The position numbers and the translations under genes are program-made. This document shows positions 127 through 9,795 of a stretch of 40,215 nt of DNA, one piece after another (position 1 is the stretch's first letter; each line of letters opens with the position of its first letter). The notes beneath the pieces are model-generated. The model had not been told where the DNA came from. It saw only the letters and a list, made by a program, of their open reading frames with translations, and ran no database searches. The DNA lies in IMG/VR virus record IMGVR_UViG_3300009180_000087, positions 1 to 40,215 of that record; one strand, written 5' to 3'. The stretch is from a virus.

Positions 127-951
127 ATGAATCGTCCTTTCTTAAAGTGGGCAGGAAACAAATATAGGGTCCTGCCCCATCTTATTCCCCATATTGGATA
201 TCCAAAGAGGTATTGTGAACCTTTTGGTGGCAGTCTTTCTGTTGCCTTGAACACATCGGCAGAGCAATTCATTCTGAATGATGTGAATAAAGATTTGGTG
301 GCAATCTATCAGAATCTGGTGAATCCAAATGATGACAGTTTTATCAAATACTGTGAAAAACTGTTCATTCCAGAGAATAACACGAAGGAATCGTATTTGG
401 AGTTACGTGAGCACTTTAATAATTCAACAGATTCTGTGGAGAGAGCACGTTTGTTTGTTTATCTGAATCGTCACTGTTTTAATGGTCTTTCCAGATACAA
501 TAGTAAGGGTGGATTTAATGTACCTTTTGGTAAGTATGATAAACCAGTATGCCCATCAGAGCAAATGAATGAGTTTCGTATGCTCTTTCTATCAAAACAA
601 TCAGTAAGATTCACATCACTTTCCTTTGAGGATTCTATTCTTTATAGTAACCTTGAAACAGGTGATGTGGTCTATTTTGACCCACCATATGTTCCTGCAT
701 CTGATACAGCAAACTTCACAAGTTATGCTACTGATGGTTTTAGTCATGAGCAACAGGTTGAGTTGATGGAGTTAGCAGAATCTCTTGCGAATCGTGGTGT
801 TAAAGTGATTCTATCCAATCATGATGTGCCGATTACTAGAGAACTTTACAAAAATGCTCAAATCTACCCAATTCAGGTGACCAGAACCATCTCTGCAAAG
901 AGTTCTAGCAGGAAAAAGGCAAATGAACTGATTGCGGTGTGGCAGTCCTGA
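127..951 (+). CDS. dam: Dam-type N6-adenine DNA methyltransferase (D12 class)
   Basis: 274 aa, close to the usual length of T4 and bacterial Dam (about 260-280 aa). It transfers a methyl group from S-adenosylmethionine to adenine N6 in DNA, typically in GATC. Visible motifs, in the alpha-group order: FLKWAGNK (residues 5-12) and EPFGGS (31-36) for AdoMet binding, NDVNKDL (51-57), and the catalytic DPPY at 185-188. The C-terminus SSRKKANELIAVW resembles the usual Dam end. The ATG immediately follows the preceding stop. In the phage it may protect DNA from GATC-cutting nucleases; a MutH-like endonuclease is encoded at 8253-8837. GATC specificity is inferred from the family and is not proven. 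Confidence 0.93.
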   Translation: MNRPFLKWAGNKYRVLPHLIPHIGYPKRYCEPFGGSLSVALNTSAEQFILNDVNKDLVAIYQNLVNPNDDSFIKYCEKLFIPENNTKESYLELREHFNNSTDSVERARLFVYLNRHCFNGLSRYNSKGGFNVPFGKYDKPVCPSEQMNEFRMLFLSKQSVRFTSLSFEDSILYSNLETGDVVYFDPPYVPASDTANFTSYATDGFSHEQQVELMELAESLANRGVKVILSNHDVPITRELYKNAQIYPIQVTRTISAKSSSRKKANELIAVWQS

Positions 952-996
952 AACTGGCACACAGGGGCACACAGGACTGTCTGAGTGCCCTATAAT
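938..996 (+). promoter_or_regulatory. Promoter cassette 1: 24-bp dyad plus TATAAT
   Basis: TGTGGCA (938-944), a 10-nt spacer containing the dam stop codon, and TGGCACA (955-961). A consensus -10 TATAAT lies at 991-996, 36 bp from the start of the second arm. No good -35 is present. A GGGCAC/GTGCCC inverted repeat lies between the dyad and the -10. It is one of eight cassettes with the same geometry in this window and probably drives the gene at 1019. Confidence 0.7.
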
Positions 997-1018
997 AGTC
1001 TCATAAGCAACCAACCCC

Positions 1019-1372
1019 ATGACTGCCACCTTCGCTGACTACGCTGCCCAGCAAACCGCCCGTAACAACATTCAGTTGAATGTTGTTAAGTATGGTCTGA
1101 TGCTGTGTGATGCTCTCATTCAAGATGCTCCTGATGGTTATGGTTACGAACTGAATTCTTCGGGCACAAAGTATCACAAAATCTTTATGTGCATTGATGG
1201 TCGTCGTGATAGCATTCATTGCTTCATTGATAAAAAGACTGGTGAAATCTACAAACCTGCGAGTCTCAAAGCACCTGCCAAAGGTGTTCGTTATGACCTT
1301 CGTATCATTGAGCAACGTGAATGGTTGCTTGAGAATGCTGACTGGGCAGGTGGTTATCTCTACGCTAAGTAA
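1019..1372 (+). CDS. Conserved cyanophage-type small protein, unknown function
   Basis: 117 aa, starting at the first ATG after a TATAAT promoter; the leader ends AACCAACCCC, with no clear Shine-Dalgarno. The protein contains CFIDKKTGEIYKPASLK followed by APAKGVRYDL and ends DWAGGYLYAK. I remember this combination as a widespread small protein of T4-like cyanophages, with no known function. No membrane segment or catalytic motif is seen. It heads a run of small genes and is followed after one base by a secreted-protein gene. The family recollection comes from memory, not a search. Confidence 0.85.
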   Translation: MTATFADYAAQQTARNNIQLNVVKYGLMLCDALIQDAPDGYGYELNSSGTKYHKIFMCIDGRRDSIHCFIDKKTGEIYKPASLKAPAKGVRYDLRIIEQREWLLENADWAGGYLYAK

Positions 1373-1373
1373 A

Positions 1374-1775
1374 ATGAAAAAACTACTTCTTCTGCTTCCA
1401 CTTACATTTCTTTCTGTTCCTGTGCAAGCACAACAGACGAACATCTATCAGGTTTGCCGAACCTATCAAGAGAACTATGCACCTGGTTATTATGATCAGT
1501 ATGGTAATTATATTCAAGGTAATGTAGATACTCAGGGATACAATACTCAGTGTGGAACTGGTACATACTATCTCCCTAACAACGGTGGAGCAGTCTATGC
1601 TTCTCCAGTCTCTCAACCAGTACAACAACCTAGAACATGCGCTGCTGCGCCTCTGGGAGCGATTCTAGGAGGTCTTGGTGCTTATGGTGTGACCAAGAGT
1701 GTTCCGAATCGTTGGTGGTCGATTCCTCTGGGTGTAGTGACTGGTGGTATTATTGGTAATGCTGTCTGTAATTAA
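1374..1775 (+). CDS. Exported protein with signal peptide and glycine-zipper-like C-terminus
   Basis: 133 aa from ATG 1374, one base after the previous stop. The start is chosen because it opens a classic signal peptide: MKKLLLLLPLTFLSVPVQA, with likely cleavage after AQA/QA near residue 19. The middle is rich in Y, Q, N and G. The C-terminal 40 residues carry a glycine-rich hydrophobic pattern (LGAILGGLGAYG, then PLGVVTGGIIGNAVC) like glycine-zipper two-helix segments of envelope proteins. Cysteines occur near both ends of the mature chain. It probably acts in the periplasm or outer envelope of the host. A role in lysis, superinfection exclusion or envelope alteration is possible but unproven. 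Confidence 0.8.
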   Translation: MKKLLLLLPLTFLSVPVQAQQTNIYQVCRTYQENYAPGYYDQYGNYIQGNVDTQGYNTQCGTGTYYLPNNGGAVYASPVSQPVQQPRTCAAAPLGAILGGLGAYGVTKSVPNRWWSIPLGVVTGGIIGNAVCN

Positions 1776-1834
1776 ATGACTTCAACTGACAAACTGATTT
1801 TTATTTCATCCTTCGTTTGGTTTCTTCACTGGTC

Positions 1835-2314
1835 ATGCAATCTATCATCGAAACTACTGGATATGGTTATCGCAAGCGGATCTGTACGGATGTTGCCACT
1901 TGGTTTCTGAGTAAGTTTCTACCACGCCATCAGATTTATGTTGAGATTCAACATCGTGGTCTGAAGCGTGAGAATGTATTTGGTTGGTGCGATTATACTG
2001 GTGATTCCTATCGCCCTCGTGAGTTTCTGATTGAATTGGATACTTGGATGCCTGAGGAATTGTATGTGAAGACTCTTCTTCATGAACTGGTGCATTTGCG
2101 TCAGTGGGTGACTGGATCTCTTCGTGCAAAGCGTGGTAAGAGATATTATGATGGAACAAATGTGGAGGAGATTGAGTATTGGGAGCAACCACATGAGATA
2201 GAGGCAAGAGAGCAGGAAGTGATATTATATGCAGAGTATCTTCAAGACAGAGCTCCTGTGCCAGTTTTTCAAGTGGCACACTGGTTCCCCAATCGCCTGC
2301 TGAATGCCCTATAA
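1835..2314 (+). CDS. SprT-like / HExxH zinc metallopeptidase-like protein
   Basis: 159 aa from ATG 1835; an in-frame TTG at 1817 is a less likely start. The zincin motif HELVH (residues 83-87) supplies two His ligands and the catalytic Glu. A downstream EQPHEIEAREQE segment (about 117-128) offers a third Glu ligand. This arrangement and the small size fit SprT/WSS1-like or other compact metallopeptidase folds found in phages. The substrate is unknown; DNA-protein crosslink or host protein cleavage are options. The last 15 codons overlap promoter cassette 2, and its TATAAT contains the stop codon, so this gene end doubles as a regulatory site for the next gene. Confidence 0.75.
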   Translation: MQSIIETTGYGYRKRICTDVATWFLSKFLPRHQIYVEIQHRGLKRENVFGWCDYTGDSYRPREFLIELDTWMPEELYVKTLLHELVHLRQWVTGSLRAKRGKRYYDGTNVEEIEYWEQPHEIEAREQEVILYAEYLQDRAPVPVFQVAHWFPNRLLNAL

Positions 2315-2315
2315 T
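2257..2315 (+). promoter_or_regulatory. Promoter cassette 2 embedded in the end of the metallopeptidase gene
   Basis: TGTGCCA (2257-2263), a 10-nt spacer, and TGGCACA (2274-2280) form a perfect 7-bp inverted repeat. TATAAT is at 2310-2315, again 36 bp from the second arm start. The dyad is translated as part of the upstream protein, and the -10 overlaps its TAA stop. It probably drives 2341-2604 and the following gene run. Confidence 0.72.
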
Positions 2316-2340
2316 TACAAGGTAATCGAGAGAGACATTC

Positions 2341-2604
2341 ATGACTGACTTTCCCACGCTTCACTCCAAAGATGGCACGATGGTTGTTCAATACTATCCT
2401 GTTAAAACTCCTTACGGTGATATTAGTCGGGAGTGGTGTCTGCAAGTGTTGTCTTGGGAAGGTGTGGAGCAGATGTCTAAGAAGTTTCTGAATCGTGTGG
2501 AGAAGTCTCTTGCAATTCGTGAGCGTGTTGCACTTGGTTATGTTGTGACTGCTGACAATACCAGTCTGCCTCAACTTGGTAATCCTTTTCATGGTGCTTG
2601 CTAA
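2341..2604 (+). CDS. Small protein of unknown function
   Basis: 87 aa, MTDFPTLHSKDG to GNPFHGAC, starting at the first ATG 26 nt after the TATAAT of cassette 2. The sequence is soluble and mixed charged, with no motif I recognise. It heads the compact operon running to about 5105; the next gene starts directly after its TAA. Confidence 0.75.
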   Translation: MTDFPTLHSKDGTMVVQYYPVKTPYGDISREWCLQVLSWEGVEQMSKKFLNRVEKSLAIRERVALGYVVTADNTSLPQLGNPFHGAC

Positions 2605-2778
2605 ATGACTACAATTCATCGTTTTAATAATCTCTTTGATGCCGTGAGGTTCTTGACTGATACATTTCAGATGACGAATCAAGAAGCAACTCATTTTGTA
2701 TGGGATCATCAATCTACGATTGGAACTGACCGTGGTGTTTGGATTGATGTAAAATCACTGATTGGATTGGTAAAATGA
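2605..2778 (+). CDS. Small protein of unknown function (57 aa)
   Basis: ATG 2605 follows the previous TAA with no gap. The 57-aa product runs from MTTIHRFNNLFDAVRFL to KSLIGLVK. It shares a 4-base ATGA overlap with the next gene, typical of coupled translation. The middle segment MTNQEATHFVWDHQ suggests a helical soluble protein. No family is recognised. Confidence 0.65.
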   Translation: MTTIHRFNNLFDAVRFLTDTFQMTNQEATHFVWDHQSTIGTDRGVWIDVKSLIGLVK

Positions 2779-2960
2779 GCAACAACACAACTTGGTTTGA
2801 AGTGTTTGTAACTCTTGGTGCTGGTATGGTTCTTCTTGTGATTGCTGCTGGTCTTCTTGCTTTCACTAATCCAAGAATTGAAGCAAAATGTATTGCAAAA
2901 GGAGGGCAAGTTTTTGCTGTTCCTGGTCATCCTAGTTCCTGTCTTTATCCTGCAAAATGA
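2775..2960 (+). CDS. Small single-span membrane protein
   Basis: 61 aa, overlapping its neighbours by ATGA at both ends. A hydrophobic stretch, VTLGAGMVLLVIAAGLLAF (about residues 12-30), is a clear transmembrane helix. It is followed by a short domain with two cysteines, ending GHPSSCLYPAK. It probably sits in the host inner or thylakoid membrane. Function unknown. Confidence 0.7.
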   Translation: MSNNTTWFEVFVTLGAGMVLLVIAAGLLAFTNPRIEAKCIAKGGQVFAVPGHPSSCLYPAK

Positions 2961-3109
2961 AAATCACTCAACTTTATCTTGTTGGAATTGCTCTGCTGAT
3001 GTATATGTCTTATAGTGCTCATCGTGATGAGTACAGACAGAAACAACAGCAAGCAGAGATTCATAAATTGTACTGTTCCGAAAACCCTACAAACTCTTCT
3101 TGCAAATGA
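2957..3109 (+). CDS. Small membrane-anchored protein (50 aa)
   Basis: ATG 2957 overlaps the previous stop (ATGA). The N-terminus MKITQLYLVGIALLMYMSY is hydrophobic and is either a signal anchor or a short membrane helix. A charged helix rich in Q, K and R and a Cys-containing tail, CSENPTNSSCK, follow. The next gene overlaps by ATGA. The similar architecture of the neighbour at 2775 (membrane helix plus two Cys at the end) suggests a pair acting together. The function is not recognised. Confidence 0.65.
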   Translation: MKITQLYLVGIALLMYMSYSAHRDEYRQKQQQAEIHKLYCSENPTNSSCK

Positions 3110-3303
3110 ACTTTACACTTGAACAACAAAAGATTATCTACAATGCGGTGAGGTATTATCAGATGAATCGAGTACCACATGCTGGAAAGGATTATTCTGT
3201 CTGTGATGAGATACTGAACAATCTCTTCAAAGAAGTTAAGTTGAATGAGGTTGAAGCAGTACCTCCCACACCTCCAGTCAACGGATTTGGATTTAATGTA
3301 TGA
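3106..3303 (+). CDS. Conserved cyanophage-type small protein (65 aa)
   Basis: ATG 3106 (ATGA overlap) is preferred over an in-frame TTG at 3100. The product begins MNFTLEQQKIIYNAVRYYQM and includes CDEILNNLFKEVK. I recall closely similar short proteins in T4-like cyanophages, all of unknown function. It is predicted helical and soluble with a Pro-rich C-terminal tail (VPPTPPVNG). It is coupled by ATGA to the next gene. Confidence 0.72.
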   Translation: MNFTLEQQKIIYNAVRYYQMNRVPHAGKDYSVCDEILNNLFKEVKLNEVEAVPPTPPVNGFGFNV

Positions 3304-3503
3304 ACAACAAAGACCTTCAGACATTTATTGCTGCATTTGACGATTTTATGAAACACTTTGACGCTGAAGAACTTTATTATGATGGGCGTAAGGTTTATGA
3401 GAATCATCGTGCCGAAGCACGTAGAATTCAAGAAGAACAAATTGAAGCAAAGGCAGCAGAGTTGGAAGTGACCTGTGATTATTATATGATGGAGTTCATG
3501 TGA
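3300..3503 (+). CDS. Small acidic helical protein of unknown function
   Basis: 67 aa, ATGA overlap with the previous gene. The composition is rich in E, D and A, with a probable long helix between residues 30 and 57 (ENHRAEARRIQEEQIEAKAA). The final G-A of its TGA region overlaps the next start. No motif is recognised. Confidence 0.68.
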   Translation: MNNKDLQTFIAAFDDFMKHFDAEELYYDGRKVYENHRAEARRIQEEQIEAKAAELEVTCDYYMMEFM

Positions 3504-3718
3504 TGAATCTCTACATCATCAACAAAATCCTTTTTGATTACACTTCTGGTATGGTAGTGATTGCTGCCGAGTCTAAAGAACATGCCCGTGATTTGTTTAT
3601 TGAAAAGTTTGTTAATTATGGTGCCGAAGATTTCGATCATGAATCTACCAAGTTTACTGTGATTGAAGGTGTGAATCATCCTGCTGCTATTGTTGACTAT
3701 GTGTATGGTGGAGGTTGA
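3503..3718 (+). CDS. Small alpha/beta protein, paralogous to the gene at 3903
   Basis: 71 aa from ATG 3503, overlapping the previous TGA by one base. The pattern MNLYIINKILFDYTSGMVVI, then AAESKEHARDLF, is matched by the gene at 3903 (MKSLYIVDYW, a gap, GGLICLIASTDTEAFGIL). Both look like a small fold with two strands and a helix, repeated in cyanophage genomes. The function is unknown. Confidence 0.68.
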   Translation: MNLYIINKILFDYTSGMVVIAAESKEHARDLFIEKFVNYGAEDFDHESTKFTVIEGVNHPAAIVDYVYGGG

Positions 3719-3719
3719 A

Positions 3720-3890
3720 ATGAATACAAGAACCAAACTGCTTCTCTCTTTATCACAAGTGGAGGGTATTCTCAAACTGATGAAGGGTAATGAGTACGAA
3801 CACTACATTATCACATTTCTAGCACCAGTTAATGCAGAACTCAATCGACAGTTGACAAATCTCACACAATCGACTAAAATGAAGGAGTAA
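3720..3890 (+). CDS. Small helical protein (56 aa)
   Basis: ATG 3720 is chosen because GGAGG lies 7 nt upstream, inside the end of the preceding gene; an upstream in-frame start at 3690 would overlap that gene further. The product MNTRTKLLLSLSQVEGILKL to STKMKE appears helical and amphipathic. No family is recognised. Confidence 0.6.
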   Translation: MNTRTKLLLSLSQVEGILKLMKGNEYEHYIITFLAPVNAELNRQLTNLTQSTKMKE

Positions 3891-3902
3891 TTAATCAAAG
3901 AA

Positions 3903-4133
3903 ATGAAATCACTTTATATTGTAGACTACTGGGTGCCGTTTCCATCTTCTGAGTATGGAGGTCTCATTTGTCTGATTGCTTCCACTGATACTGAGGCATT
4001 TGGTATTCTGTCAAATGAGAAAGCATTTGATGAGAGTTATGCACATTTGATTATGCCAAATGTTGTCAAGGCACAGAAGTTCAAACTACAAGATGAGCAT
4101 GAGGTTGGTATTCTTGATTCCTTTACGACATGA
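3903..4133 (+). CDS. Small alpha/beta protein, paralogous to the gene at 3503
   Basis: 76 aa, MKSLYIVDYWVPFPSSEYGG onwards. The N-terminal strand, GGLICLIASTDTEA strand-turn and following helix match the layout of the 3503 product, which suggests tandem duplication. It overlaps the next gene by ATGA. The function is unknown. Confidence 0.68.
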   Translation: MKSLYIVDYWVPFPSSEYGGLICLIASTDTEAFGILSNEKAFDESYAHLIMPNVVKAQKFKLQDEHEVGILDSFTT

Positions 4134-4411
4134 TTCCTGAGTTTCCACACAAAGCACCAAAGGATTATAGTTATGAGTTTGAGCAATTCAATACCCGTGC
4201 TGTTCGCATTTGGTTGTGTAATAGTCGGCAATTTGATTATAATCTTGGTGCCAGTACCAAAACTGTATGGGGATTCTATTCACCAAAGAAACGAGTCTAC
4301 TATGCACCAGTCAATGTCAAAACAATTGGTAAGCAAATAGATATAGAGAGTACAACGCCTTATACTGCAATGCCTCTTAAACAAACTCCACTTACTGCTG
4401 CTTTTGTATGA
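4130..4411 (+). CDS. Conserved cyanophage-type protein (93 aa)
   Basis: ATGA overlaps on both sides. The sequence contains FEQFNTRAVRIWLCNSRQFD, then a basic beta-rich stretch (KKRVYYAPVNVKTIG) and a Thr/Pro-rich end. I associate the APVN-K-T-G segment with small proteins of T4-like cyanophages. No enzymatic motif is seen. The function is unknown. Confidence 0.7.
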   Translation: MIPEFPHKAPKDYSYEFEQFNTRAVRIWLCNSRQFDYNLGASTKTVWGFYSPKKRVYYAPVNVKTIGKQIDIESTTPYTAMPLKQTPLTAAFV

Positions 4412-4593
4412 CTACATTCTATTCTGGTTTAGAGGTTAAGTATAAGGATCATGTTGGTTTTGTTGATTTTGTATGTGAGAAGTATATTACCATTTGTATT
4501 AATCAATCAGAAAATAGGTTAAAGGAGGTATGCATATTAGTCTATCCCCAATACTGGAAGGAAGTACAGTTACTGAAGCAATCGGAGAAATGA
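4408..4593 (+). CDS. Conserved cyanophage-type small beta protein (61 aa)
   Basis: MTTFYSGLEVKYKDHVGFVD, then YITICIN and CILVYPQYWKEVQLLKQSEK. The alternating hydrophobic pattern suggests a small beta barrel or SH3-like fold. I recall near-identical short proteins in cyanomyoviruses. It overlaps the genes on both sides by 4 bases. The function is unknown. Confidence 0.72.
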   Translation: MTTFYSGLEVKYKDHVGFVDFVCEKYITICINQSENRLKEVCILVYPQYWKEVQLLKQSEK

Positions 4594-4835
4594 AACATAA
4601 GACAGCATGGAGGTGGTGGTCAAAAGCATTAGGTGAGAAAGCATCCAAATGTGATAGAGAGTCTGATAAGATTTCACTCATTCGTACCTTTATCTTTCTC
4701 ACATACTTAATCACTAATGCCTTTATTGTTGCTGGAGTAGTACGACACTGGAATGACAAACAACATGAAATACCAAGTAACCTACCTGAAACCAAAAAAA
4801 AAATCGTATTCAAGACAAGTAGTCACGTTTTATAG
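4590..4835 (+). CDS. Small single-span membrane protein (81 aa)
   Basis: ATG 4590 is preferred: it overlaps the previous stop by ATGA and has GGAG just upstream. A longer in-frame ORF starting at 4530 would overlap the previous gene. The N-terminus is basic (MKHKTAWRWWSKALGEKASK), followed by a hydrophobic helix, LIRTFIFLTYLITNAFIVAG (about residues 30-49), then RHWNDK and a polar tail. The pattern resembles conserved cyanophage membrane proteins. Its last 83 bases overlap the next gene in another frame. Confidence 0.7.
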   Translation: MKHKTAWRWWSKALGEKASKCDRESDKISLIRTFIFLTYLITNAFIVAGVVRHWNDKQHEIPSNLPETKKKIVFKTSSHVL

Positions 4836-4923
4836 TATTGAAGATGCATCACACTATGAGCATCATATACAGTTACAAGGATGTAAACAAACTCAAATCA
4901 TACCAGTATTCGGAGAGTCATGA
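4753..4923 (+). CDS. Small basic protein (56 aa) overlapping the membrane-protein gene
   Basis: ATG 4753 (or ATG 4765) opens a frame to TGA 4921-4923 encoding KYQVTYLKPKKKSYSRQ, then FYSIEDASHYEHH and a C-terminus ending IIPVFGES. The frame extends well past the upstream stop at 4835, ends with a 4-base ATGA overlap with the next gene, and resembles short cyanophage proteins I recall. I therefore take it as real despite the 83-base overlap. The likely fold is beta-alpha-beta. Function unknown. Confidence 0.65.
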   Translation: MTNNMKYQVTYLKPKKKSYSRQVVTFYSIEDASHYEHHIQLQGCKQTQIIPVFGES

Positions 4924-5105
4924 CAACACTTTATACACTTGCAAATCAAGTTTATGCTTCATATCTAAAGAGAGGTAAGGGTCTTCATAGTCCTGATGAA
5001 GCATTATGGCAATTGAGAGAGTATGTAGAAGGGAATCCTGATGTGACTGATACGAATGTAATTGTTGAAAATGTAGTAATTTTACTGTTAGAGAGTGATT
5101 ATTGA
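4920..5105 (+). CDS. Small acidic helical protein (61 aa)
   Basis: Last gene of the compact run. MTTLYTLANQVYASYLKRG, then DEALWQLREYVEGNPDVTDT and ILLLESDY. It starts with an ATGA overlap. It is followed by an AT-rich tract and a strong inverted repeat (5166-5195), which may end the transcript. No family recognised. Confidence 0.65.
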   Translation: MTTLYTLANQVYASYLKRGKGLHSPDEALWQLREYVEGNPDVTDTNVIVENVVILLLESDY

Positions 5106-5165
5106 GTTAAAAGGTTAAATTTAATTAAAAAAACATATTAAAAAACATTATATTGTGTTTTGCTA

Positions 5166-5195
5166 ATTCTCAATAAGTGTTATGTTATTGAGAAT
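5166..5195. repeat. 11-bp perfect inverted repeat with 8-nt loop
   Basis: ATTCTCAATAA (5166-5176) and TTATTGAGAAT (5185-5195) are exact reverse complements around GTGTTATG. A further half-site, ATTGAGAAT, is at 5211-5219. There is no downstream T-run, so this may be a factor-binding site or an atypical terminator for the gene run ending at 5105. Confidence 0.75.
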
Positions 5196-5238
5196 CAATA
5201 GTGTATTAATATTGAGAATAGGGTAGGTTTAATGTCTG

Positions 5239-5337
5239 TTAATACCTTATAAAGACCTCTGAGACTTGTGATTAATACCTTATAAACCCCTCTGAGACTT
5301 GTGATTAATACCTTATAAAGACCTCTGAGACTTGTGA
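5239..5337. repeat. Three tandem 33-bp repeats
   Basis: Units start at 5239, 5272 and 5305, each beginning TTAATACCTTATAAA and ending CTCTGAGACTTGTGA. Units 1 and 3 are identical, and unit 2 differs at two positions. The period is close to three helical turns. Each unit has a TTATAAA segment that could act as a -10 or melting element. The role is unknown: iteron, operator array or tandem promoters. Confidence 0.85.
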
Positions 5338-5425
5338 CCTAAGCGAGCGTACCATAAGACGCGCAGTTTGTCAAGCCCCACGGCGCCGCGAAGTTCCCAG
5401 ACCCACACAGTCTTATTATAAGAAT

Positions 5426-5682
5426 CTAGTCGAGACTCATACACACAATCTCGACGAGAATGTTCACAAACATACACAATTCTCGACTAGATTGCATATA
5501 TACATACAACAATCTCGACGAGTACACACATCTAGTGCTTGCATCTCGTCGAGATATGTGCTACAATCATCTAGTTCACATACACATCTCGACGAGCTAT
5601 GTACGACGACTACGATATCGACTATACATACAGCAACGATTACGGACAGGATCTCGACGAGTATACAAATGATCTCGACGAG
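5426..5682. repeat. Array of the 9-bp palindrome CTCGWCGAG (eight sites)
   Basis: Exact CTCGACGAG/CTCGTCGAG copies are at 5450, 5514, 5545, 5588, 5653 and 5674. CTAG variants are at 5426 (CTAGTCGAG) and 5482 (CTCGACTAG). Four consecutive copies (5450-5545) are spaced 31-32 bp, about three helical turns. The copy at 5545 sits in the spacer of a promoter. The last two fall in the coding region of the next gene, in frame as Leu-Asp-Glu. The array looks like operator sites for a dimeric regulator. Confidence 0.75.
5539..5567 (+). promoter_or_regulatory. Sigma70-like promoter with a palindromic operator in its spacer
   Basis: TTGCAT (5539-5544), a 17-bp spacer, and TACAAT (5562-5567). The 13-bp palindrome ATCTCGTCGAGAT (5543-5555) overlaps the -35 edge and the spacer, a classical repressor position. 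It lies 32 bp upstream of the gene at 5599. Confidence 0.7.
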
Positions 5683-5739
5683 GATTATGCACGAGACGGG
5701 CAAGATTACGAAACGCTTGCATATCGTCATTATGCATGA
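5599..5739 (+). CDS. Small, highly acidic Asp/Tyr-rich protein (46 aa)
   Basis: MYDDYDIDYTYSNDYGQDLD to YETLAYRHYA. About a third of the residues are Asp or Glu and a fifth are Tyr, so a DNA-mimic or protein-binding role is conceivable. The motif DLDE occurs twice, each time encoded by a copy of the GATCTCGACGAG repeat. A palindrome copy at 5588 lies directly before the ATG. I recall similar short proteins ending DYxTLAYxHYA in cyanophages, which supports coding despite the repeat overlap. It is preceded by the promoter at 5539 and followed by one at 5717. Confidence 0.65.
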   Translation: MYDDYDIDYTYSNDYGQDLDEYTNDLDEDYARDGQDYETLAYRHYA

Positions 5740-5745
5740 TATAAT
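5717..5745 (+). promoter_or_regulatory. Sigma70-like promoter overlapping the end of the acidic gene
   Basis: TTGCAT (5717-5722), a 17-bp spacer, and TATAAT (5740-5745), the last directly after the upstream TGA. The surroundings GCTTGCAT and AATCTAGT match the promoter at 5539, so the two look like duplicates; this one lacks the palindrome in its spacer. Confidence 0.75.
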
Positions 5746-5767
5746 CTAGTACACATGCACGAGAATC

Positions 5768-5917
5768 ATGATAGCACACAAGCGCCTAGTTAGTGTTACA
5801 TTAGACATCATGTGTTATGATGATCTAGATGTAGAACATATAGACTGGAAAGAATTATTAGAACTCGAAGGAGATGAGGAAGTTCATTATAGCGTAAAAG
5901 AGTACGATCCCTTCTAG
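5768..5917 (+). CDS. Conserved small acidic protein (49 aa)
   Basis: MIAHKRLVSVTLDIMCYDDL, then DWKELLELEGDEEVHYSVKE and a C-terminal YDPF. The start is the first ATG well placed behind the TATAAT at 5740. I recall cyanophage proteins with the core RLVSVTLDIMCYDDL; none has a known function. The layout suggests one beta strand, one helix and one strand. The dyad at 5921 follows the stop at once. Confidence 0.7.
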   Translation: MIAHKRLVSVTLDIMCYDDLDVEHIDWKELLELEGDEEVHYSVKEYDPF

Positions 5918-5920
5918 TCT

Positions 5921-5944
5921 TGTGACAATATCTGAAGTGGCACG
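5921..5944 (+). promoter_or_regulatory. Dyad element 3 (TGTGACA-N10-TGGCACG)
   Basis: It has the same 7-10-7 layout as the other cassettes, followed by a C-run and CCCCT/AGGGG pairing. No good -10 is found 36 bp downstream, where only a TATTCT-like stretch is present. A TACATT at 6004-6009 is a better -10 for the gene at 6029. This is a divergent or degenerate cassette. Confidence 0.5.
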
Positions 5945-6028
5945 TGCCCCCTTGCGGATTCGTTCGTGAGGGGTTATTCTATGTTTGTGGTTGAGACATT
6001 CTCTACATTTTCCCTCACCACTAAGTAT

Positions 6029-6265
6029 ATGAAACTCTTCGCTTCTAAATTCTACCAAACTCTGGTGCTGAATGTTGCTACGATTGCTGCAATTATTGTG
6101 GGTTTGTATCAGTTTGCAGTTCGTGCCTTTAATGAGAACGAAGGTCCAGAAAAGACCCGTAAGGTGATTCAAACCGTTCTGCAGTTCGTTAATGCTATTG
6201 TGACTCAATTGCAAGGTCTTTTGAATAACGATGTGCCAATTGCAAAACTGTCCACTACCCGTTGA
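6029..6265 (+). CDS. Small membrane protein (78 aa)
   Basis: ATG 6029 is chosen over upstream in-frame GTG 5966 and ATG 5981 because a TACATT -10 element at 6004-6009 lies between them. MKLFASKFYQTLVLNVATIA continues into AIIVGLYQFAVRAF, giving one transmembrane helix (about residues 10-32). A charged segment, NENEGPEKTRK, and a helical C-terminus follow. It probably lies in the host membrane. The end of the gene carries promoter cassette 4, and its TGA stop overlaps the TTGACT -35. Confidence 0.68.
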   Translation: MKLFASKFYQTLVLNVATIAAIIVGLYQFAVRAFNENEGPEKTRKVIQTVLQFVNAIVTQLQGLLNNDVPIAKLSTTR

Positions 6266-6290
6266 CTTTTGGATTAATCTGTTCTACATT
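6232..6290 (+). promoter_or_regulatory. Promoter cassette 4 with full -35/-10
   Basis: TGTGCCA (6232-6238), N10, TGTCCAC (6249-6255). Then TTGACT (6262-6267), a 17-bp spacer and TACATT (6285-6290). The second arm to -10 distance is 36 bp. It drives the ArdA-like gene. The sequence from 6281 to 6313 is duplicated exactly at 6802-6834. Confidence 0.78.
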
Positions 6291-6317
6291 ACATTCGTAC
6301 CTGAGAAAACCACTCAA

Positions 6318-6737
6318 ATGCCCGTGACTCTGCAAGTGAACTACAAGGAAATCTTCTCTGCCGAAGTTGTTGAGAAAGTTGATGAATTGGTAGAAGACAA
6401 TTATGCTCTGGATGATATCCTAGAGTTCATCGATGCAAACTCTGAAGCAGACTTTATCTCATACTATGAGCAATATTGTACTGCAGGTGAGAACATCGGT
6501 TATGATGTAGTTGATGCATTCATTAAGTATCACGGTGATGTGAGTTATGTTGAGCATGTGGAAGATGCTTATCGTGGTTGTTATGATGATGAGGAAACTT
6601 TCGCTGAAGAATATTACACCGAAATCTATGGTGAAGTTCCCGCCTTCCTAGTTGTTGACTGGGAAGCAACCTGGAATTCCTCACTTCGTTATGATTTTGA
6701 TTTCGTAGAAGGTCATATGTTCCTGAGCAGTTTCTAA
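6318..6737 (+). CDS. ardA: ArdA-like antirestriction protein (DNA mimic)
   Basis: 139 aa from ATG 6318, the first start after the TACATT promoter. About 34 Asp/Glu against five Lys/Arg gives a very acidic protein, as expected for a DNA mimic. The C-terminal half fits the ArdA signature: HVEDAYRGCYDDEETFAEEY, then VDWEATWNSSLRYDFDFVEG. ArdA proteins (about 140-170 aa) bind type I restriction-modification enzymes and block them early in infection or conjugation. Production early after DNA entry fits the dedicated early-type promoter. The length is at the short end, so it may be a reduced variant. Confidence 0.8.
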   Translation: MPVTLQVNYKEIFSAEVVEKVDELVEDNYALDDILEFIDANSEADFISYYEQYCTAGENIGYDVVDAFIKYHGDVSYVEHVEDAYRGCYDDEETFAEEYYTEIYGEVPAFLVVDWEATWNSSLRYDFDFVEGHMFLSSF

Positions 6738-6751
6738 CACTTAGTGGGGGG

Positions 6752-6811
6752 TGTGCCAATCTTCAAGGTGGCACATACCCCCTAGACTTCCTGACCAATC
6801 CGTTCTACATT
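6752..6811 (+). promoter_or_regulatory. Promoter cassette 5
   Basis: TGTGCCA (6752-6758), N10, TGGCACA (6769-6775), a perfect 7-bp inverted repeat. TAGACT (6783-6788), a 17-bp spacer and TACATT (6806-6811) follow; the second arm to -10 distance is 37 bp. It lies between ardA and the gene at 6835. Confidence 0.77.
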
Positions 6812-6834
6812 ACATTCGTACCTGAGAAAACCAC
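6802..6834 (+). repeat. 33-bp exact duplicate of 6281-6313 (promoter and leader)
   Basis: The stretch from GTTCTACATTACATTCG to GAGAAAACCAC is identical at both places and covers the -10 and the untranslated leader. In the first copy ATG follows four bases later; here it follows at once. This indicates recent duplication of a promoter-leader cassette around ardA. Confidence 0.9.
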
Positions 6835-6960
6835 ATGGAAGATACACTCTGGACTGAGATTGCTGACATGGATGGTGAAATCTTCGACATGGAGATTCCT
6901 GAACTTAAGCAAGAAAAGTTCGACTTCAATGAGTACATCAACGGAAACTACGATTACTAA
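6835..6960 (+). CDS. Very small acidic protein (41 aa)
   Basis: MEDTLWTEIADMDGEIFDME, then IPELKQEKFDFNEYINGNYDY. Rich in Asp and Glu, no motif. The ATG follows the duplicated promoter leader and overlaps the next gene as TAATG. It is a possible mimic or inhibitor peptide next to ardA; that role is inference only. Confidence 0.6.
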   Translation: MEDTLWTEIADMDGEIFDMEIPELKQEKFDFNEYINGNYDY

Positions 6961-7085
6961 TGCCTGACACTCTCAACTTTACTGGTGATGGTATCACCTT
7001 CCTCGGTTTGATTGGTGTGATTAGCACCGCAATCATCGTGGTTACAGTATTCCGTTCCTATTACAATTCACCTCTTCGTAAATGA
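6960..7085 (+). CDS. Very small membrane protein (41 aa)
   Basis: MPDTLNFTGDGITFLGLIGV continues as ISTAIIVVTVFRSYYNSPLRK, with one transmembrane helix (about residues 12-32). It is linked by TAATG to the upstream gene and by ATGA to the downstream gene. Function unknown. Confidence 0.6.
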   Translation: MPDTLNFTGDGITFLGLIGVISTAIIVVTVFRSYYNSPLRK

Positions 7086-7228
7086 ACTTTCTCACCCCCG
7101 ATGATCTCAACAATCTCATTCGTCTGGTTGAGGATAACAATCAGTACAACGACGATGATGATAAAGAGTTCTGGGATGATGTGCTGATTAGGTTACAACA
7201 AACCTATCGGCACTGCCTGGATGAGTGA
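7082..7228 (+). CDS. Small acidic protein (48 aa)
   Basis: MNFLTPDDLNNLIRLVEDNN, then an Asp-rich turn (YNDDDDKEFWDD) and a helix ending YRHCLDE. It overlaps the previous gene by ATGA. Its TGA stop is part of the first arm of cassette 6. Unknown function. Confidence 0.6.
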   Translation: MNFLTPDDLNNLIRLVEDNNQYNDDDDKEFWDDVLIRLQQTYRHCLDE

Positions 7229-7282
7229 CAGTTGAGAGACTGTCCACCAACTGACCCAAACCCCCCGATTCCGTGCCATACT
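7224..7282 (+). promoter_or_regulatory. Promoter cassette 6
   Basis: AGTGACA (7224-7230), N10, TGTCCAC (7241-7247). The extended pairing GTGACAGT/ACTGTCCAC has one bulge and a 6-nt loop. The -10 is CATACT (7277-7282), 36 bp from the second arm start. The coding ATG is only 7 nt further, implying a leaderless or near-leaderless transcript. Confidence 0.7.
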
Positions 7283-7288
7283 AACAGT

Positions 7289-8182
7289 ATGAAAAACACA
7301 CACCTAGAACACGCCGAAGATTCCATCCTGACGGGTGACCTTTCAGTATTAGATTGGTTCGTGAATCCTGGTCATCTCAGCGTTAAGATTGATGGCGCCC
7401 CTGCTATAGTCTGGGGTCGCAATCCTGCCACTGGAAACTTCTTCGTGGGCACCAAAAGTGTCTTCAACAAAGTTAAAATCAAAATCAACGAATCTCATGA
7501 TGAAATTGATGCGAACCACAATGGTCAAGTTGCAAAAATTCTTCACGATTGTTTTGATTGCCTACCTCATACAGACACCATTTATCAGGGGGACTTTATT
7601 GGGTTTGGTGGATTTTCTGAATACACCCCCAACACCATCACCTATCTCTTCCGTGAGGTAATTTATCAGAAAATTATCATCGCACCTCACACTTGCTACT
7701 ATGCTGAGAGCGACCTTCGTGACGCTGTAGCGATGCCTGATCGTAGCATCTGGACTGATACCGACACGGTGAAGTTTGTGCAACCTACTGCCTCTATCTT
7801 TGCTGGTGCAGAATACTTTGCAGACCTTAAAGATGTGTGCAAGTTTGCTAAGGTGATGGCACTTGGCGTTGAGTTTGTAACTGCCAAACAATCGGCACAA
7901 ATCAAACAACAACTGAACGCTTGCATTCGTGAAGGTAAAGAGGTCAATCCTGATGACTTTGAGAATCCTAACCTGATTAGTTTCTGGAAGTTGGTGAAGT
8001 CTATCAAAGAGGATGCATTATACCTTTGCCGTAATGATGGTCCCGCAGCATACATCAACGGCAACAGAATCGATGCCGAAGGTTATGTGATGACAAATGA
8101 CTTCGGTATGTTTAAGTTGGTCAATCGTGAGGTCTTCGCTTATGCTAACTTCAATCACGGGAGGTTCCAGTGTGCCAATTGA
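7289..8182 (+). CDS. Nucleotidyltransferase/ligase-like protein
   Basis: 297 aa from ATG 7289; an in-frame TTG at 7232 falls inside the dyad and is rejected. It shows an ordered set of motifs of the covalent nucleotidyltransferase (DNA/RNA ligase, capping enzyme) superfamily: KIDG with candidate nucleotide-accepting Lys33, GDFIGFG (101-107) like motif III, EGYVM (264-268) like motif IV, and FKLV (275-278) like motif V. The N-terminus HLEHAEDSILTG and KIDGAPAIVWG resemble an uncharacterised phage family that I recall as predicted ligases. It probably acts on nucleic acid ends in the cytoplasm. It lacks an obvious extra C-terminal domain. Activity is inferred. It is followed by the MutH-like gene under its own promoter. 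Confidence 0.72.
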   Translation: MKNTHLEHAEDSILTGDLSVLDWFVNPGHLSVKIDGAPAIVWGRNPATGNFFVGTKSVFNKVKIKINESHDEIDANHNGQVAKILHDCFDCLPHTDTIYQGDFIGFGGFSEYTPNTITYLFREVIYQKIIIAPHTCYYAESDLRDAVAMPDRSIWTDTDTVKFVQPTASIFAGAEYFADLKDVCKFAKVMALGVEFVTAKQSAQIKQQLNACIREGKEVNPDDFENPNLISFWKLVKSIKEDALYLCRNDGPAAYINGNRIDAEGYVMTNDFGMFKLVNREVFAYANFNHGRFQCAN

Positions 8183-8229
8183 TAAGGTGGCACAGCACCC
8201 CTAGCAGGGTACCTCATAGGGTCTACAAT
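8171..8229 (+). promoter_or_regulatory. Promoter cassette 7
   Basis: TGTGCCA (8171-8177), N10 containing the upstream stop codon, TGGCACA (8188-8194), then TACAAT (8224-8229), 36 bp from the second arm start. The leader AAGCAACC-CACCCC before the ATG resembles the leader of the gene at 1019, so promoter and leader seem to travel together. Confidence 0.77.
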
Positions 8230-8252
8230 ACATTCAACAAGCAACCCACCCC

Positions 8253-8837
8253 ATGCTTAACACCTTTCAAGTCGCTGCTCAATTGAAGGTCACCGACTTT
8301 GACGCATTCCCCAAACCTGCAAAGAACAAAGGATCGCGTGGGCAATTGATTGAAACTGCCCTGGGCATTCCTAACAGTTCCAACCTCAAAGATTTGGTGG
8401 ACGGTGAACTTAAGACTTTCACAGTTGGTGAGTCTATTGCCGTCACACAATTAAAGCACTGCCTCTCCGAAATTATTGAAGACGGTGTAACTTTTGCCGA
8501 TAGTAAGGTTGGAGAAAAACTCTCTCAAACCATCTACGTTGGATTCACCCGCTCCAACGATTATGTCGGCACCGCTGTTCTGAATCCTGAAACTCACCCC
8601 GAACACTATCAGGAATTGGTAGAGGATTACCAGTTCATTTGTGACACCATCCGCACCCTCTTTGATGCTGGCAAAGAACTTGGCACCGTTACTGGTCCTA
8701 ACGGTCTGCTGCAAATCCGCACCAAAGCATCTAAAACCAATGGGCGCTATGTTCCTCTAACCTTTGCAGGAGTAACATTAAAGAATAAAGGCATGGCATT
8801 CTACCTCTGCGGCAAGTTCGGCAAAGAGGTGGTGTGA
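8253..8837 (+). CDS. MutH/Sau3AI-like DNA endonuclease
   Basis: 194 aa. The N-terminal part shows the MutH/Sau3AI signature NKGSRGQLIETALG (Glu34) and, after a short gap, KDLVDGELKT (Asp47, Glu52, Lys54). These match the E...D...ExK catalytic set that binds Mg2+ in MutH and Sau3AI, though D to E is two residues shorter than in E. coli MutH. E. coli MutH has about 229 aa. Family members cut at GATC and are sensitive to the adenine or cytosine methylation state. With a phage Dam at 127-951, a natural reading is host-DNA attack with methylated phage DNA spared; mismatch repair is the alternative. Specificity is not visible in the sequence. Confidence 0.75.
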   Translation: MLNTFQVAAQLKVTDFDAFPKPAKNKGSRGQLIETALGIPNSSNLKDLVDGELKTFTVGESIAVTQLKHCLSEIIEDGVTFADSKVGEKLSQTIYVGFTRSNDYVGTAVLNPETHPEHYQELVEDYQFICDTIRTLFDAGKELGTVTGPNGLLQIRTKASKTNGRYVPLTFAGVTLKNKGMAFYLCGKFGKEVV

Positions 8838-8891
8838 CAGTTGGGGGACTGTCCACCAATCACCCCAAACCCCCTCACGGGGTGCCATACT
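8833..8891 (+). promoter_or_regulatory. Promoter cassette 8
   Basis: TGTGACA (8833-8839) containing the upstream TGA, N10, TGTCCAC (8850-8856), then a CCCC/GGGG pairing and CATACT (8886-8891), 36 bp from the second arm start. The leader AACCAAACGGAGCA (8901-8914) supplies the Shine-Dalgarno CGGAG and recurs at 9512-9525. Confidence 0.76.
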
Positions 8892-8918
8892 TAACAAGTC
8901 AACCAAACGGAGCACCTC

Positions 8919-9245
8919 ATGCGCAAAATCGAACGCCAAATGAACGCTGCCATCACTGCCAAAAGTGATTGGAAGTCTGGCAATACTGAAGTTCACTTCT
9001 GCGATGGTGTGAGTTTTGTATTCCTTCACGGCAATATGATTGCTCAGGTTGGTGATAACTTTGTGAGGTTGTTTGACGGTGGGTTTCAATCTCATACCAC
9101 CAAATCCCGTCTGAATGCTATTCTTCAGGGGCACGGATTGCCCGGTGAATGTGTATTCCAAAAGCAGTGGACTTGGTTTGTTAATCTTAAGACTGGCAAC
9201 GGTATTGCAACTGTTCCCTTCTTCTCCTCCATGCGCCTGGCATAA
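8919..9245 (+). CDS. Conserved cyanophage-type protein (108 aa)
   Basis: MRKIERQMNAAITAKSDWKS, then GNTEVHF, FLHGNMIA and TTKSRLNAIL. I recall a broad family of short cyanophage and plasmid-like proteins with the pattern MRKIE-QM...W-SGNT...LHGN-IA...TKSRLNAL, of unknown function. A CGGAG ribosome-binding site lies 7 nt before the ATG. The protein is soluble and beta-rich, with no catalytic motif. G+C is higher than in the structural genes. Confidence 0.8.
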   Translation: MRKIERQMNAAITAKSDWKSGNTEVHFCDGVSFVFLHGNMIAQVGDNFVRLFDGGFQSHTTKSRLNAILQGHGLPGECVFQKQWTWFVNLKTGNGIATVPFFSSMRLA

Positions 9246-9311
9246 CCTCAAAGAGAATGGGATGCGCTCTAAAGACACCCTAACTCAAACCACACTAACT
9301 AACACAAACTC

Positions 9312-9449
9312 ATGACTTTTGAACTTGCCTCTGCTCTCCTGAATCGCGCTGCTAATGGTGACGAACTCCTGCAGATTCTGGATTCTATCTCCGCTGACAA
9401 TGAGGCGGGCACTGTAACAGATAGCGATGGCACCCCCATCATCTGGTGA
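9312..9449 (+). CDS. Small conserved helical protein (45 aa)
   Basis: MTFELASALLNRAANGDELL, then QILDSISADNEAG and a short tail to IIW. The N-terminal helix with NG-D-(M/L)LQILD is familiar from short cyanophage proteins. Its TGA forms part of cassette 9. No promoter of its own is obvious in the 66-nt gap before it. Function unknown. Confidence 0.65.
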   Translation: MTFELASALLNRAANGDELLQILDSISADNEAGTVTDSDGTPIIW

Positions 9450-9504
9450 CAATCCGCCAACTGTCCACCCCCTGCCGGATTCGGTGGGGGGTTGCCTGTA
9501 GGAT
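9445..9504 (+). promoter_or_regulatory. Promoter cassette 9
   Basis: GGTGACA (9445-9451), N10, TGTCCAC (9462-9468), then a strong hairpin-forming stretch (CCCCC, CCGGATTCGG core, GGGGGG) and a TAGGAT -10 (9499-9504), 37 bp from the second arm start. The leader AACCAAACGGAGCA (9512-9525) matches cassette 8. Confidence 0.68.
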
Positions 9505-9531: not shown

Positions 9532-9795
9532 ATGACCGCCAACACCTACAACGGTTGGGCAAATTACCAGACCTGGAACGCTGCCCTCTGGATTGGCAAC
9601 GATGAGTTCCTCTACAACACCGCTAAGGCATGTGTTGAGTACTGCGGCGCCGATGAGACCCCCTGGCAAAAATTCGTCCGTTGCATGACTGATGGGCAGA
9701 TTGGGCGGATGCTGGGGCAGACCCGCGACGGGGTGAAGTGGAACGACCCCGCAATCGATGAGGCAGAGATGCTGGAGATGATGGGAGACCTCTAG
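9532..9795 (+). CDS. Conserved NGWxNYxTW family protein (87 aa)
   Basis: MTANTYNGWANYQTWNAALW, then IGNDEFLYNTAK, WQKFV and an acidic end. The NGW-NY-TW motif with a following W/ND defines a small family common in phages and some bacteria and archaea, of unknown function. The ribosome-binding site is CGGAG. The DNA here is GC-rich compared with the late genes. The stop codon merges with a GGGG-TTCG-CCCC hairpin. Confidence 0.8.
   Translation: MTANTYNGWANYQTWNAALWIGNDEFLYNTAKACVEYCGADETPWQKFVRCMTDGQIGRMLGQTRDGVKWNDPAIDEAEMLEMMGDL

Follow-up and report, generated by a model that had tools for sequence, protein, structure and literature searches.

A dyad at a fixed distance from a -10 hexamer forms a recurrent promoter cassette in T4-like cyanophages and shares its half-site with host yfr2 promoters

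The sequence analyzed here, which we call the window, is a DNA stretch of 40,215 nucleotides that covers positions 1 to 40,215 of the IMG/VR virus record IMGVR_UViG_3300009180_000087. At the DNA level it is closest to short stretches of Synechococcus phages. Judged by its genes, which include baseplate wedge and neck proteins and, directly 3' of one of the elements described below, a protein with the Pfam assignment Kyanoviridae Gp96, the window is from a T4-like cyanophage of Kyanoviridae type. A scan with Rfam found no RNA families in it. The subject of this analysis is an element of the window that consists of an imperfect 24-bp dyad and a -10 hexamer downstream of it (Table 1).

All nine dyads of the original prediction, which had been made from the letters alone, lie at the coordinates given there. 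The eight -10 hexamers that it listed have the sequences given there, and each could be placed by coordinate. The dyad at 5921 had been described as lacking a spaced -10; TATTCT is present at 5975-5980 (GTG+53, counted from the GTG of the first arm), and a -10-like hexamer is found 52-53 bp past this GTG in 9/9 dyads. The sites summarized earlier as TGKCMAC are real, but the right arm comes as either TGKCACA or TGTCCAC, and the single consensus thus blends two classes. The statement that five stop codons fall within the 24-bp element holds for the copies at 938, 7224, 8171, 8833 and 9445; the first of these stops belongs to an open reading frame (ORF) for a D12-class adenine DNA methyltransferase at 127-951. 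The leaders said to be shared among copies are also present, with AACCAAACGGAGCA occurring at both 8901 and 9512. Elements 4 and 5 have 30 identical bases (6284-6313 and 6805-6834), which span the -10 and the leader and point to a promoter-leader unit that was recently duplicated or exchanged. Just 5' of element 3, at 5240-5700, the window contains three near-identical copies of a stretch like ttaataccttataaagacctctgagacttgtga, followed by many TCTCGACGAG repeats.

Table 1. Coordinates of the nine elements and of one neighbouring gene in the window.
Feature	Position	Strand	Dyad	-10 hexamer	Other features	Downstream ORF
Element 1	938-996	+	TGTGGCA-N10-TGGCACA, 938-961	TATAAT, 991-996		1019-1372 (DUF7717)
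Element 2	2257-2315	+	TGTGCCA-N10-TGGCACA, 2257-2280	TATAAT, 2310-2315		2341-2604
Element 3 (the "ninth" dyad)	5921-5980	+	TGTGACA-N10-TGGCACG, 5921-5944	TATTCT, 5975-5980	terminator-like hairpin, 5948-5973	
Element 4	6232-6290	+	TGTGCCA-N10-TGTCCAC, 6232-6255	TACATT, 6285-6290	-35-like TTGACT at 6262	6318-6737
ORF 3' of element 4	6318-6737				anti-restriction-like, phrog_36653	
Element 5	6752-6811	+	TGTGCCA-N10-TGGCACA, 6752-6775	TACATT, 6806-6811		6835-6960
Element 6	7224-7282	+	AGTGACA-N10-TGTCCAC, 7224-7247	CATACT, 7277-7282	stop of upstream ORF inside dyad	7289-8182 (DUF6267)
Element 7	8171-8229	+	TGTGCCA-N10-TGGCACA, 8171-8194	TACAAT, 8224-8229	stop inside dyad	8253-8837
Element 8	8833-8891	+	TGTGACA-N10-TGTCCAC, 8833-8856	CATACT, 8886-8891	stop inside dyad	8919-9245 (Kyanoviridae Gp96 protein)
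Element 9	9445-9504	+	GGTGACA-N10-TGTCCAC, 9445-9468	TAGGAT, 9499-9504	stop inside dyad	9532-9795 (DUF7249)

The dyad and the -10 hexamer occur together far more often than expected by chance. A pattern search of the window that allowed up to three mismatches gave 28 matches, compared with a mean of 15.2 in shuffled sequences; with up to two mismatches there were 8 forward matches and 1 for a reversed control. With a looser consensus we obtained 14 matches over both strands, a count in which palindromic copies appear twice, once per strand, and 11 of these have the sequence [TC]AnnnT at GTG+51 to GTG+53. In 60 Markov-1 simulations of the window the mean was 0.4 dyads and 0.05 pairs of dyad and hexamer. 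A -35/-10 promoter was found by a simple scan in only 1/9 copies of the window, while a -10 was found in all of them. Among the 501 copies from other viral loci that are described below, 63 have a -35 that matches in 5 or 6 of 6 positions, compared with 6 in shuffles.

The same arrangement is present in other cyanophages. The pattern of dyad plus -10 was detected in 8/8 Kyanoviridae cyanophages, namely Syn9, P-TIM40, P-SSM2, P-SSM4, S-PM2, P-HM2, the freshwater phage S-CRM01 and S-B43, with 2-12 matches each; S-B43 has two matches only, one of which is weak. No match was found in six controls, which were T4, KVP40, the pelagiphage HTVC008M, the Microcystis phage Ma-LMM01, the podovirus P-SSP7 and the cyanophage S-TIM5, and the reversed control pattern gave none in the tested phages. 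Syn9 has 5 exact matches to the pattern and at least 8 by weight matrix, and P-TIM40 has 7 in forward orientation; since the weight matrix finds Syn9 copies that the strict pattern misses, the counts per genome are lower bounds. The copies cluster amid runs of small ORFs of unknown function, at 43-53 kb in Syn9 and at 49.7-55.1 kb in P-TIM40. A contig filed as Nonlabens xiamenensis contains, at 1474-1532 of the retrieved locus, an element identical to positions 55024-55082 of P-TIM40, and it is probably cyanophage DNA in that assembly. This match and those filed under Flavobacteriales look like phage sequence within assemblies and were not taken as bacterial sites.

The spacing was measured on copies that had been collected without any promoter requirement. 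A scan of IMG/VR with a pattern for one arm class found at least 120 stretches, which do not amount to a census. In 128 contexts among the matches listed, the sequence TAnnnT lies 36 bp from the second arm in 54 cases, 35 bp in 17 and 37 bp in 13, with about 1-2 cases at other distances. When hexamers were scored in 99 distinct copies, likewise taken from the matches listed, at a threshold of at least 6 of 8 against TATAAT and with no distance favoured, 52/99 had a -10-like hexamer at GTG+52, 14 at GTG+51 and 11 at GTG+53, over a background of 0-5 at most distances. Beyond the dyad and the -10 these phage copies have little sequence in common. For the composition of the arms we used 501 distinct copies (less than 80% mutual identity) with a -10 at GTG+51 to GTG+53, which came from 2.15 Mb of viral loci; this set was not used for spacing, because many of its loci had been fetched with a pattern that requires the -10. 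Its consensus is a 24-bp palindrome, TGTGMCASTT-N4-AASTGKCACA, or the same with the right arm TGTCCAC, and the first GTG lies 52 (51-53) bp before the -10. The fixed spacing, the recurrence of the element in hundreds of copies across contigs of other cyanophages and its placement before clusters of small ORFs support the modular promoter cassette that had been proposed. Since the cassettes lie at the ends of upstream genes, genes would be swappable as units of promoter plus ORF.

A related sequence occurs in the hosts of these phages, upstream of the small RNA genes called Cyano-1 (the Yfr2 family), which are present in 57/61 Cyanobiaceae genomes. The sequence G[AC]CA[GC]TT was found in 35/61 distinct picocyanobacterial yfr2 promoters and in 1.2% of shuffles, and the host half-sites are mostly GTGACAGTT, GTGCCAGTT or GGACAGTT. 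When host hexamers were scored with the same threshold as those of the phages, their distances peaked at the same value, GTG+52 (14/35, with 6 at 51 and 9 at 53). The half-site GTGMCAGTT at 52-53 bp from the -10 is common to the phage elements and the host yfr2 promoters. The A/C variation within the half-site is also the same in both, and the host variant GGACAGTT matches the phage right arm TGTCCAC.

The two groups differ in how the half-sites are paired. Phage half-sites face inward across a 4-bp gap, whereas the host has either a single half-site or an outward pair with a 1-bp gap. The outward pair AACTGKCACNGTGMCAGTT is rare; it was found in 13/61 host genomes, mostly beside yfr2 by coordinates, and no outward pair of the host type was found in the viral loci. 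The phage-type palindrome in turn is not a general regulon of picocyanobacteria, where the strict pattern occurs in 4/251 genomes, which is about chance. When 84,980 bacterial and archaeal species were scanned for the palindrome of the phage type with its -10, 53 matches resulted, about 15 of them cyanobacterial. Four of these precede Cyano-1 genes (RF01701), of which three belong to Nostocales and the fourth to an uncultured cyanobacterium; all four have the inward pair with the 4-bp gap, as in the phages. In several Calothrix-type genomes (loci L259, L262, L268, L280, L293 and L303) a longer palindrome, TGTGACAGAT-N4-ATCTGACACA, has a -10 at a similar distance and precedes a conserved protein gene that starts with MNKRQYRLLSASR or nearly so; it may be a further target of the host regulator considered below.

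A protein that binds yfr2 promoters has been reported. According to PMC6778093, the GntR regulator PMM1637, which all cyanobacteria share, binds yfr2 promoters that contain the element CGRE1, and CGRE1 is found nowhere else in the MED4 genome; the work on CGRE1 is attributed there to Lambrecht et al. 2018. PMM1637 is equated with PlmA in two reviews (PMC7344720, PMC6243067), the first of which describes PlmA-type GntR proteins as universal in cyanobacteria. We found one GntR protein above cut-off in 11/11 host genomes checked, with an open frame of at least 331 amino acids. In 15 cyanophage records no GntR protein scored above cut-off, and a GntR protein encoded by the phage was dropped as the binder.

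The half-site and the distance that the phage promoters share with the host make it probable that the virus relies on a regulatory protein of its host. We assign a probability of about 65% to the following interpretation: each copy of the element is an activation site fused to a sigma-70-type promoter, likely an early one, with host PlmA as the candidate activator. A host protein, most likely the GntR regulator PMM1637/PlmA, would bind the dyad at about -65 to -41 and would recruit or support RNA polymerase from the moment the DNA enters the cell. The -35 is usually weak, the dyad is held on one face of the helix relative to the -10, and the first half-site is the one aligned with the host yfr2 promoters. 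Phages of ocean and freshwater cyanobacteria probably start many small takeover genes from these promoters.

Several points weigh against PlmA as the activator. No half-site is present in 26/61 of the host yfr2 promoters. The second half-site of picocyanobacteria, where there is one (9/35), lies upstream, and a single dimer is not normally expected to recognize an outward as well as an inward pair. This difference in orientation is the main weakness and could point to a second dimer, to a dimer of different geometry or to a protein other than PlmA. It weighs less in view of the four Cyano-1 promoters that are arranged as in the phages. The equation of CGRE1 with GTGMCAGTT was inferred from position and specificity and not from a direct comparison with the CGRE1 sequence. 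Cyanophages of other families that infect the same hosts lack the element. Finally, the early timing, though most likely, is taken from the literature and from the small-ORF context.

A possible, though clearly less probable, interpretation is that the dyad is an activator site in DNA whose binder is not PlmA; the protein would be a different regulator of the host or one from the phage that is delivered along with the virion or synthesized first. The orientation of the half-sites speaks for such a binder, as does the fact that PlmA is a candidate binder of the phage dyad. Phages also carry many unknown proteins, and an AbrB-type gene lies near the element cluster of P-TIM40. However, the half-site and the 52-bp spacing match those of yfr2 promoters that PMM1637 reportedly binds, no phage record checked has a GntR gene, and a factor made by the phage would leave unexplained why the host uses the site.

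The original prediction also considered the promoter-early stem-loops (PeSL) of T4-type phages (Arbiol 2010 and Comeau 2014, as cited in PMC4503421). On this account the dyad would be an RNA stem-loop or terminator that ends the upstream gene beside an early promoter and is kept for termination, mRNA protection or as a recombination point. The layout is similar, in that repeated promoter cassettes stand between small shuffled genes. An ORF of at least 40 codons ends inside the element in 210/490 distinct copies, compared with 80 at random sites. Furthermore, a separate GC-rich stem lies between the dyad and the -10 in 43/501 copies (about 9%; 2 in shuffles) and also in element 3 of the window, which indicates that some cassettes combine an activator site, a terminator of the previous gene and a promoter. 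The dyad itself does not behave like an RNA stem. Within the TGnCACA class, arm position 4, which is A or C on the left and G or T on the right, varies independently in the two arms (149, 52, 89, 26; chi-square p=0.61), and this pair is Watson-Crick in 55% of copies, with 57% expected. The inner G/C position of the same class is anti-complementary, with 37% Watson-Crick pairs (p=1e-5); here the two arms tend to carry the same top-strand letter (G-G or C-C), a preference that is predicted neither by a simple palindrome nor by a hairpin. Arm positions that are independent or anti-complementary are the opposite of what an RNA stem would show, and the dyad is thus a DNA-level site upstream of a promoter. 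In addition, the right arm TGTCCAC pairs uncleanly, no U-tract follows the dyad itself, the distance to the -10 is constrained to one base, a precision for which a terminator has no need, and T4 and KVP40 do not have the dyad. Together, these results make a stem-loop of the PeSL type very improbable for the dyad, while the cassettes with a separate stem remain PeSL-like in layout. In 18/336 palindromic dyads TATnnT stands at the appropriate distance on either side (chance, which was only estimated, is roughly five), as would be expected of a site that serves divergent promoters.

An activator site of the CRP family had been the other suggestion, and its logic of an activator at a fixed distance was upheld, but the family is wrong and a CRP or NtcA site is the least credible of the alternatives: the TGTG...CACA arms resemble half a CRP site and a centre near -53 is where an upstream activator could sit, yet CRP (TGTGA-N6-TCACA, 16 bp) and NtcA (GTA-N8-TAC) differ in core and spacing from the 24-bp palindromes of the 501-copy consensus, which have a conserved CASTT core in each arm and a half-site that matches yfr2 promoters.

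The element belongs to a class that is already known. Doron and colleagues reportedly described in ISME J in 2016 a novel regulatory element, conserved among T4-like cyanophages, that controls early genes in Syn9 and P-TIM40. Since both phages carry the dyad with its -10, before clusters of small ORFs, the element of the window is most probably the same. What sets the present fragment apart is its origin in a new, uncultured phage, its nine copies and its two classes of right arm. The link to PlmA is what we infer here; the literature passages searched, from which Doron 2016 and Lambrecht 2018 were absent, have no mention of a connection between phages and PlmA.

In T4 the middle promoters have a MotA box near -30. 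The phage element is similar in that an activator site takes the place of the -35; it differs in being a 24-bp palindrome centred near -53 rather than a MotA box near -30. T4-like cyanophages are reported in PMC5780444 to lack motA and/or asiA. With a concrete host protein, site and spacing named, what selects their early promoters becomes a testable question. If the activator is indeed PlmA, early infection would be wired to a regulator that is specific to cyanobacteria and has ties to nitrogen and thioredoxin signalling. The small-RNA network of yfr2 would then either suffer directly from infection or aid it. The odds seem about even to us that Kyanoviridae run their early transcription via PlmA with 2-12 or more yfr2-type sites, that they thereby tie their start-up to the nitrogen and redox signalling of the host, and that they could titrate PlmA away from yfr2 as their genomes multiply.

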